DNA of 64,000 nt from Natronomonas moolapensis 8.8.11 (GTDB lineage Archaea > Halobacteriota > Halobacteria > Halobacteriales > Haloarculaceae): contig NC_020388.1 of the NCBI RefSeq assembly GCF_000591055.1, positions 2,790,001 to 2,854,000 on the forward strand. The letters are read 5' to 3'. Below, piece by piece: positions 9,271 to 16,707 of this stretch (the first letter of the stretch is position 1; each line of letters begins with the position of its first letter). The notes below the pieces were generated by a model. The model searched no databases. It was not told the origin of the DNA and saw only the letters and a program-made list of their open reading frames with translations. The translations under genes and the position numbers were made by a program.

Positions 9271-11460
9271 TCAGAAGTAGTCGACCTGTTGGGGCAACTC
9301 GAGTTTCATGCCCTTGCGTTCGCGGATCTCGTCGATGATCTCCGGCTGGAGGTTGTCGGCCATGACCCGGAAGCCGGCGTTCTCGGTGTTCCAGGAGGCG
9401 CGTCCCTCCGTCGCGGACCGGATGTCCGAGGAGAAGCCGATCATCTCGTCGACGGGAGCGATTCCCTCCACGACCATCAGATCGCCTTCCTGGTACATGT
9501 CGTCGACGCGGCCGCGTCGACCCTGGATCTCGCCGGAGGCGGCACCCATGTGTTCGTTCGGCACGTCGATGCGGACCTCCTGGATCGGCTCGAGCAGTTT
9601 GATTTCGCCGTCCATCAACGCGTTGTGGACCGCACGGCGAACCGCGGGGATGACCTGTGCGGGGCCGCGGTGGATGGCGTCCTCGTGGAGCCGGGCGTCG
9701 TGCAGTCGGATCAGCGCGCCCTCGACGGGTTCGGCGGCGAGGGGACCGTCCTCTAAGGCCTCTTCGAGGCCCTCGATGACGAGCTCCATCGTCTCGTTGA
9801 GGTGCTGGATCCCCTTCGTGTCGTCGATGAAGACGTTCGTGTTGAAGATGTGCTCGACGTTCTGGGCGGTGTCTTTGTCCATGCCTTCCTCCATGAGCGC
9901 CTCGCGACGCTCGAGTTCGGGCATGTCCATCGACGCCTCGCCGAGTTTGATCGCCTCGACGACGTCGTCGTCGAGCGGTTCGACCGTAATATAAAACCGG
10001 TTGTGGTTGTTCGGCGACCGGCCCTCGACTTCGCGGGAGTCGCTCTGGGGGGCCTCGCGGTAGACGACGATCGGTTCGCCGGTGTTGACCGGAATGCCCT
10101 GGTTGCGCTCGATACGCTGGGTGATGACCTCGAGGTGGAGTTCGCCCTGTCCCGAAATGAGGTGTTCGCCGGTGTCCTCGTTGATCTCGATCTGTATCGT
10201 CGGGTCCTCCTTGGCGACCTGCTGGAGCGTCTCGATGAGCTTCGGCAGGTCGTCCATGCTCTTGGCCTCGACGGACTTCGTGATGACCGGCTCGGAGATG
10301 TGCTCGATGGACTCGAACGGCGTCATTTCGACGCTCGAGACCGTCGACCCGGCGATGGCGTCTTTCAGCCCCGTGACGGCGGCGATGTTGCCGGCCGGGA
10401 CGCGATCGACCTCCTCGCGCTCCCCGCCCATGTAGACGCCGACGCTTTGGACGCGGTTCGTGCCGGCCGTCCCGGAAACGTAGAGGTCTTGACCCTTCTC
10501 GATCGTGCCGGAGAAGACCCGCCCAGCCGCGATTTCGCCGGCGTGGGGGTCGACCCCGATGTCGGTGACCATCAGCACGATCTCGCCGTCCTCGTCGACG
10601 AGGCGCATCGTCTCGGCGAGATCGGAGTCGGCGTCGCCGCGCCAGATCCGCGGGATACGCCGGGGTTGGGCGTCGACCGGGTTCGGGAAGTGCTCACAGA
10701 CCATATCGAGGACGACGTCCGACAGGGGCGTGCGCTCGTGGAGCTCCTGTCGTTTGTCGGCCTGCTCGAGATCGATGATTTCGCCGAAGTCCATCCCGGT
10801 GCGCTGCATCGACGGCATCGAGACGCCCCACTTGTACAGCGCCGAGCCGAAGCCGACCGTTCCCTCCTCGACGGAGACAGTCCAGTCGTCGTTGATGTCG
10901 TCCATTTCCTCGGTCATCCCGCGGATGAGCTCGTTGACGTCGGCGATGACGCCCATGAGACGCTGTTGCATCTCCTCGGGACCCTCTTGGAGCTCCGAAA
11001 TGAGGCGGTCGACCTTGTTGATAAAGAGCGCCGGCTTGACGCCCTCCCGTAGCGCCTGCCGAAGGACGGTTTCGGTCTGGGGCATCGCGCCCTCGACGGC
11101 GTCGACGACGACCAACGCGCCGTCGACGGCGCGCATCGCCCGGGTCACGTCGCCGCCGAAGTCGACGTGGCCCGGCGTGTCGATGAGGTTGATGAGGTGG
11201 TTTTGCTCGTCGTACTCGTGGGTCATCGAGACGTTGGCCGCGTCGATGGTGATCCCACGTTCCTGTTCGTCCTCCTCGGTGTCCATCGCGAGCTGTTGGC
11301 CCGCGGTGTCGTCGGAAATCATCCCCGCACCGGCCAGCAGGTTGTCAGTAAGCGTCGTCTTTCCGTGGTCGACGTGGGCGGCGATGGCGATGTTCCGGAT
11401 GTGCTCCGGGGCGTCCATCAGCCGTTCACACTCCTGTACGATCTTCTTGCGTCGGCCCAT
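9271..11460 (-). CDS. fusA: translation elongation factor EF-2
   Basis: 729 aa from the ATG at 11460 ([15 protein letters not shown]), the normal haloarchaeal length. GTPase motifs [20 protein letters not shown] and NKVD are intact. The diphthamide histidine lies in HEDAIHRG (about residue 600), as in archaeal and eukaryotic EF-2. Catalyses translocation. The predicted TATA (CCTTTTCACC) lies about 28 nt upstream, and just beyond it begins a 137-bp tandem array. Expected next to rps7 in the str cluster but separated here by 3 kb. Confidence 0.97.
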
Positions 11461-11495
11461 TATACCGCATAATTTCGACAGCAAGGTGAAAAGGG

Positions 11496-11978
11496 TAGTG
11501 TTTCGTCGTTGCGGAGCGAGCGTAAGCGAGCGATGCAACGCCGAGGCTCGGAAGACGAGCCTCGCGAGTCTTCCGGTGTTTCGGCGCGGCGGGTTCGCGC
11601 CGAAGCTTGTGAGGCGAGCGTAGCGAGTCTCACAGTGTTTCGTCGTTGCGGAGCGAGCGTAAGCGAGCGATGCAACGCCGAGGTTCGGAAGACGAGCCTC
11701 GCGAGTCTTCCGGTGTTTCGGCGCGGCGGGTTCGCGCCGAAGCTTGTGAGGCGAGCGTAGCGAGTCTCACAGTGTTTCGTCGTTGCGGAGCGAGCGTAAG
11801 CGAGCGATGCAACGCCGAGGTTCGGAAGACGAGCCTCGCGAGTCTTCCGGTGTTTCGGCGCGGCGGGTTCGCGCCGAAGCTTGTGAGGCGAGCGTAGCGA
11901 GTCTCACAGTGTTTCGTCGTTGCGGAGCGAGCGTAAGCGAGCGATGCAACGCCGAGGTTCGGAAGACGAGCCTCGCGA
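11496..11978. repeat. 137-bp tandem repeat array, about 3.5 copies, upstream of fusA
   Basis: Units start at 11501, 11638, 11775 and 11912 (last one partial, diverging near 11978); copies are nearly identical (one T/C difference in copy 1). Each unit contains four hairpins: CGTTGC...GCAACG; CGGAAGAC...GTCTTCCG (8 bp); TTCGGCGCG...CGCGCCGAA (9 bp); TGTGAG...CTCACA. Loops share GCGAGCGTAGCGAGT-like sequence. The end nearest fusA contributes CGAAAC just upstream of the predicted fusA TATA, so the array abuts or includes the BRE position. Open frames through it are by-products of the period. Confidence 0.95.
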
Positions 11979-15576: not shown

Positions 15577-15800
15577 GACCGCAACGCGTGGGAGCAGCCC
15601 ACGATCCGAAAGCGACCGGGTCACGGGAGAGCAGACATCGCCGGGGGCCACGGCGAACGTCGGCTGATATCGGTGCTCGCCACGGGTGGATTCCCCGTCC
15701 GCCGTCGAGGCGGTATCACTCCGCTGTCGACGGCCACAGTCAGGAGAGGTGGTGTTAAGATCGTTCAACGCCCGCCGACAGGGCTGATAATAGTATTTAT

Positions 15801-15884
15801 TCGAAGCCGCGTTCCTCGAAGTCGCGTTGTTCGTTGCGTTGTTCGAAGCCGCGCTACTCGAAGTCGCCTTCTTCGAGGGCGGCC
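15801..15884 (-). repeat. imperfect 42-bp duplication of the PadR-like gene's 3' end
   Basis: TCGAAGCCGCG...TCGAAGTCGC at 15801-15842 repeats from 15843 with a few changes; the second copy holds the last codons and stop of the regulator gene and the first lies just beyond the stop. The rest of 15577-15800 shows no gene or clear signal apart from an AT-rich patch at ~15786-15800. Confidence 0.7.
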
Positions 15885-16354
15885 CGCAGGACCATCCCGA
15901 GCGCGAGGTGCTGGCGGGCGGCTTCGGCGACGTCCTCGCGGGCGGTGGCGGCGTCGTCGAGGGTGTACTCTTTGGTTTTGACGAGTTCGCGCTGTTCGAG
16001 GACGGCCTCGTCACAGAGGTCGTGCAGGCGCGGGTAGACGGTTCCGGGGCTGAGAATCGTATCGAACTCCTGGGCCAGATCGTCCAGCAGCTGTTTGCCG
16101 TGGGTGTCGGCGCTCCGCAGCGCCACCAGCGACACCAACAACTCGTCCAGCGAGGATTTGACGTGCGTCTCCTCGAAACTGAACGCCTCCGCCCCGAACA
16201 ACGACGTCTCCACCTCGCCGACGACTTCCGAGACCGCCGTCCCCGGCGTCTCCGATTTGCCCGTCCCGTTCAGTTCGGCGCGCAACTGCGACACCGTGAT
16301 CGAATCCTCGTTGTCCGTCCCGCCGATTTCCGCCGGTGAGTCCATCTCCGACAT
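15854..16354 (-). CDS. PadR-like winged-helix transcriptional regulator
   Basis: 166 aa from the ATG at 16354. An acidic N-terminal ~68 residues is followed by a PadR-type winged helix (about 69-133): LDELLVSLVALRSADTHGKQ, LSPGTVYPRLHDLCDEAVL and the wing ending KTKEYTL, then a C-terminal helix for dimerisation. A second in-frame ATG at 16402 would add 16 residues (MKSRGGRIYEWCVRER). Each ATG has a TATA box 25-28 nt upstream, so both forms may be made from separate leaderless mRNAs. The gene is inserted between nusA and rps12, normally adjacent. Target genes unknown; autoregulation likely given its promoter complexity. Confidence 0.85.
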   Translation of the reverse strand: MSEMDSPAEIGGTDNEDSITVSQLRAELNGTGKSETPGTAVSEVVGEVETSLFGAEAFSFEETHVKSSLDELLVSLVALRSADTHGKQLLDDLAQEFDTILSPGTVYPRLHDLCDEAVLEQRELVKTKEYTLDDAATAREDVAEAARQHLALGMVLRAALEEGDFE

Positions 16355-16375
16355 ACGTTCCCGCACACACCACTC

Positions 16376-16438
16376 ATATATACGCCCCCCTCGGCTTTTC
16401 ATCGCCCGAACACCGACCACTAAATTTATATATAAGCG
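16376..16438 (-). promoter_or_regulatory. two tandem TATA boxes of the PadR-like gene
   Basis: TATATA at 16376-16382 lies 25 nt before the ATG at 16354; TTATATATAAATT at about 16424-16436 lies ~28 nt before the in-frame ATG at 16402. The second box is nearly palindromic and could also fire on the plus strand, where I find no ORF. Confidence 0.6.
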
Positions 16439-16707
16439 CCTGACGCACGGCACCACGATTCCGGAAGAGCGTGTGACGGCGATCGGTGAGGGACGAACCG
16501 TCGCCATCGATCCCGTGTAGACGGGGAACCGCTCGGTGGTGGAAATGGAGTCACCTGTCCCTGCGGGACGGCCTACTCGCGTTCGTGATATAAAATACGC
16601 ATCCGCTTCACCGTCCGAAACGGGGACGGGAACCGATTCGGTCCGACCCGAGGCCGGCGGTCGCCGGAGTGTATGGCGACGGCCCACCCGGTCGCGAGGG
16701 TGTGTCG
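16439..16707. other. intergenic region between nusA end and the PadR-like promoter
   Basis: No gene supported. It holds a 5-bp hairpin GTCCC TGC GGGAC (16557-16569) and an AT-rich TGATATAAAATACG (about 16587-16600) that reads as a TATA box on either strand. The hairpin lies downstream of nusA and may terminate the rpo transcript. Confidence 0.4.

Follow-up and report, generated by a model that had tools for sequence, protein, structure and literature searches.

RosR, which belongs to the PadR regulators, is listed as one of the targets that it represses, and it recognises a 20-bp palindrome (PMC4287449). Two transcription start sites (TSSs) are known for 139 genes of Haloferax volcanii, and for 111 of them one transcript is leaderless and the other leadered (PMC4983044). 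The gene described here, from Natronomonas moolapensis 8.8.11, has predicted features of both systems. It is probably a RosR-like PadR gene that regulates itself and has tandem promoters, which would give a leadered and a leaderless mRNA and a single protein starting at position 16354 of the window, by which we mean the whole 64,000-nt stretch of DNA that was analysed. The organism has one 2.9-Mb chromosome and no plasmids (PMC3623002), and the genome was searched as a single contig of 2,912,573 bp.

Identity and origin of the PadR gene

The features discussed below are the following, in window coordinates:

15775..16452, minus strand: duplicated unit consisting of promoter and gene, matching the fumC-gatB copy (genome 966.6-967.3 kb) at 95% identity
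15854..16354, minus strand: coding region of the PadR-type winged-helix regulator, 166 aa, starting at M17 of the long ORF (from Pfam PadR, orthologue starts and structure-profile matches)
16355..16402, minus strand: upstream extension of 16 in-frame codons, including ATG 16402; not considered a conserved coding region
16375..16382, minus strand: inner TATA box TATATATG, ~28 nt before ATG 16354, with a TATA-like element at the same place in orthologues, weak in a few
16396..16412, minus strand: operator-like inverted repeat TGTTCGGGCGATGAAAA containing ATG 16402 (from the family consensus; the only match in the window)
16425..16435, minus strand: outer TATA box TTATATATAAA (from sequence, its count in the window and conservation in fumC-locus orthologues)

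The assignment of the product as a PadR-like regulator, made in an earlier note on this DNA, is borne out by Pfam PadR (PF03551), which scores 27.5 bits and so just exceeds its cut-off of 27, at residues 92-151 of the long ORF. When the family profile was compared with solved structures, the best match was Rv3488 (E 2e-6), and hsRosR was matched with E 0.001. The C-terminal segment ARQHLALGMV, a candidate for the dimerisation helix of PadR regulators, is conserved; with a mean pLDDT of 42, the AlphaFold model built on a 7-row alignment is a low-confidence one. We take the gene to encode a haloarchaeal winged-helix regulator of the PadR family, similar to RosR, with DNA binding and regulation as predicted functions.

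A second copy of the gene, coding for a protein 96% identical, lies between fumC and gatB of the same genome. The DNA match of the two copies extends over 680 bp with 95% identity. It begins a little upstream of the outer TATA box and ends beyond the stop codon, and therefore the promoter moved along with the gene. Other Natronomonas genomes with readable flanks carry a close homologue between fumC and gatB as well, and a homologue is absent from the nusA-rps12 gap of every genome for which both of these genes were located. It is because of this distribution that we regard the window copy as derived: judged by gene order, it is a duplicate residing in the nusA-rps12 junction, and fumC-gatB is the ancestral locus. 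The neighbour names fumC, gatB, nusA and rps12 were read from the sequences, with Pfam support for nusA and rps12 only. The junction had been described as otherwise conserved, which is overstated. Its length varies across the genus, and the two relatives inspected hold other, unrelated ORFs, by eye a cation-efflux-like one on the opposite strand (G017) and a flavin-reductase-like one (G004). The nusA-rps12 gap is apparently a tolerant place. Elsewhere in the window, at 11460-11950, near-identical tandem repeats of ~137 bp stand just upstream of an EF-2-like gene and appear as repeated identical ORFs.

Two TATA boxes around a dyad

On the minus strand CTTATATATAAATTTAG (TATA 16435-16425) stands 5' of ATG 16402-16400 and GTATATATGAG (TATA 16382-16375) stands 5' of ATG 16354-16352, so that the earlier claim of two TATA boxes, each before an in-frame ATG, is confirmed in the sequence. 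The distance from the TATA start to the ATG is ~32 nt for the outer and ~28 nt for the inner pair, within a few bases of the ~28 and 25 nt given previously. The outer box must be more than a chance occurrence, because its TATATAAA is present in 5 copies in the 64-kb window as compared to 0.02 expected.

Conservation of the two boxes was followed in 16 aligned promoters of the fumC-type gene, 14 of them from other Natronomonas genomes and two being the copies of this genome; several of the aligned orthologues form close pairs and are thus non-independent. Counted from the conserved start, the outer TATA lies near −78 and the inner TATA at −28 ± 2, the distance between the boxes is constant at ~50 bp, and indels between them do not exceed 0-1 nt. 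Pairwise identity is 0.58 for the outer TATA, 0.55 for the dyad and 0.54 for the inner TATA, as compared to 0.33-0.37 for the upstream flank, the spacer from dyad to inner TATA and the stretch from inner TATA to ATG. At the level of sequence, two conserved core promoters are located upstream of one start. The proposal of two promoters is supported by the fixed spacing at which both boxes are kept in orthologues.

The dyad between the boxes has the family consensus TTTTCA-N5-TGAAAA, and the site at 16396-16412 is its sole match in the whole window. In the wider family, 31 of 56 promoters have a dyad with at least 10 of 12 matches, where Markov shuffles lead to expect ~0.5, although many of these promoters are interrelated and do not amount to 56 independent tests. 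The gap is nearly always 5 bp. In three related species (L011, L012 and L013) both arms have changed symmetrically, giving TTTTCT-N5-AGAAAA. In two dispersed paralogues of N. aquatica (L034, L036) the dyad between the TATAs is doubled, with 20 bp from one to the other, in the region 55-100 nt ahead of the PadR start. A pattern search of 20 Natronomonas genomes, counted by hand, placed 9 of 27 distinct near-consensus sites in promoters of the PadR family. The sole perfect TTTCA-N5-TGAAAA site of this genome (L120:1220-1320, genome ~2,886,750) is found between a divergent gene pair that by eye is PHA-granule-like (AbrB-like/phasin and MaoC/PhaJ-like). Sites outside the PadR family, such as this intergenic one, may belong to another regulator.

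Could one of the two boxes be something other than a promoter? If transcription came from the inner promoter alone, the outer TATA would be an architectural or regulatory AT-rich element of the operator, such as a bending site or one that depends on TBP. The rigid spacing of ~50 bp and the fixed phase to the dyad, which exceed what an independent second promoter needs, speak for this possibility. However, the outer element makes a good TATA box, followed ~10 nt downstream by a conserved GG, it is still present in L014-L019, the more distant fumC-locus orthologues, whose dyad is degenerate, and genes with two TSSs are common in Haloferax (PMC4983044). We consider a purely architectural outer box unlikely. 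The opposite case, in which the outer promoter acts alone and every mRNA is leadered, is very unlikely, although the outer TATA is the stronger box and orthologues L008 and L013 have a Shine-Dalgarno-like GGAGG or GGTGAT. In most orthologues the inner TATA has the spacing from the ATG that is standard for leaderless mRNAs (it is weak in L014-L016), and the module of dyad, TATA and ATG also occurs in paralogues without an evident outer TATA, e.g. L062-L064. For most orthologues, Shine-Dalgarno matches ahead of the conserved start do not reach significance.

Some PadR paralogues (L062, L063, L068, L069, L074 and L079) have a 9-codon mini-ORF upstream, with the peptides MVILPKVRR, METLQVVSQ, MPHTQVVDE, MLLAEVTNE and MLCTPEVAA; by eye, L064 seems to carry a similar one. 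The mini-ORFs start ~28 nt after a TATA box, contain a Shine-Dalgarno-like GGTGA/GGAGGTG and overlap the padR start at their end, in the sequence ATGA. Such a mini-ORF has the look of a leader ORF, itself leaderless, that couples translation.

The upstream ATG and the 16-codon extension

It had been suggested that promoter choice produces two proteoforms, with an outer leaderless mRNA from ATG 16402 adding 16 basic/aromatic residues (MKSRGGRIYEWCVRER) and the inner mRNA giving the short form. The 16 residues were read correctly, the frame being open from ATG 16402 as well as from ATG 16354 down to the stop at 15854. Moreover, the TATA-ATG geometry fits, and both copies in this genome retain ATG 16402 and the open frame, so that the extra residues are uninterrupted here.

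Orthologues, however, lack the extension, having in-frame stops or no start. Not a single orthologue from relatives has ATG or GTG at the position of ATG 16402, where the sequence is TTGAAAAC / TTGAAAACG or similar. In five fumC-locus orthologues (L006, L008, L012, L015, L016) the 48 nt are interrupted by in-frame stops; in L009 the frame is open there and includes an in-frame TTG. The conserved start of orthologues is ATG 16354 (M17) or lies at most two codons from it. Of the two TATA-ATG pairs and the extension for which conservation in relatives had been proposed as a check, the outer TATA is kept and the 16-residue extension is not; the two start codons are not both conserved in close relatives. 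When the two copies of this genome are compared, the extension differs at 8 of 48 positions and the gene body at 12 of 501 (Fisher p = 1e-4), a divergence ~7 times higher, and 3 of the 7 changed codons alter the residue. GC3 is 0.50 in the extension versus 0.87 in the gene body. Because relatives have no start and carry stops there, and because of the GC3 and the fast divergence, the extension does not behave as a selected coding region.

The dyad accounts for the upstream ATG. The repeat of the window occupies 16396-16412, and ATG 16402 is therefore part of it, namely of its right half, ATGAAAA. ATG 16402 most likely belongs to a predicted, conserved, operator-like DNA-binding site between the promoters. 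Two functional start codons and two proteoforms are unsupported, and regulation of the N terminus by promoter choice is highly improbable. It is conceivable, if most improbable, that in N. moolapensis alone the TATA-operator-TATA switch became a proteoform switch, the operator half-site doubling as a leaderless start codon. If this is true, regulator binding would also decide which N terminus is made.

A putative autoregulatory module and its known relatives

In the autoregulated tandem promoter that we favour, the order of elements would be outer TATA, dyad operator, inner TATA. The inner promoter would give the usual leaderless mRNA from ATG 16354. The outer promoter would give an mRNA starting ~48 nt earlier, within the operator, and in relatives this would mean that an identical protein is made from an mRNA with a leader of ~48 nt. 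Probably the regulator binds its own dyad and would thereby cover and block the outer start, which makes repression the presumed direction of regulation there. Bound to the dyad immediately upstream of the inner TATA, it could modulate the inner promoter as well. Against this reading speak the degenerate dyad of L014-L019, the weak inner TATA of L014-L016 and, as regards translation of a leadered mRNA, the non-significant Shine-Dalgarno matches in most orthologues.

The fixed TATA-dyad-TATA architecture is the part of the finding worth keeping. With two TATA boxes at a constant distance around one dyad, it represents a clear, conserved and testable candidate module of archaeal autoregulation for the haloarchaeal PadR regulators, a family that is largely uncharacterised. 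The case also calls for caution in the annotation of haloarchaeal start sites: an ATG that happens to be in frame within an operator can pass for an alternative leaderless start.

Regarding known systems, Rv3488 (PDB 5zhc) belongs to the PadR family but is bacterial and shorter (113 residues) than the window protein, which scores only 17.9 of 140 bits with the NCBIfam model of the Rv3488 family, far under the cut-off. RosR (VNG0258H) of Halobacterium salinarum is, like the window gene, a haloarchaeal PadR-type winged helix-turn-helix regulator, and it is reported to repress its own gene via a palindromic site (PMC4287449), as is proposed for the window gene. The window protein of ~166 aa is longer than the RosR chains of 116-127 residues in the PDB. 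The operators differ too: TTTTCA-N5-TGAAAA in the window gene and TCGnCGACGAGnTCGnCGAC in RosR. RosR motifs are on average 18 bp from the ATG, whereas the window-gene dyad is upstream of the inner TATA. A TCGnCGA-type palindrome is absent from the window gene's own promoter, where the TTC/GAAAA dyad is found instead; on this ground we rejected the identification of the gene as RosR itself and place it in the wider family. The two-TSS genes of Haloferax volcanii that combine a leaderless with a leadered transcript have two promoters for one reading frame, which is the arrangement proposed here (PMC4983044). Their two TSSs are experimental, whereas the Natronomonas ones are predicted, and come with a shared operator and a TATA-TATA spacing that is fixed genus-wide.
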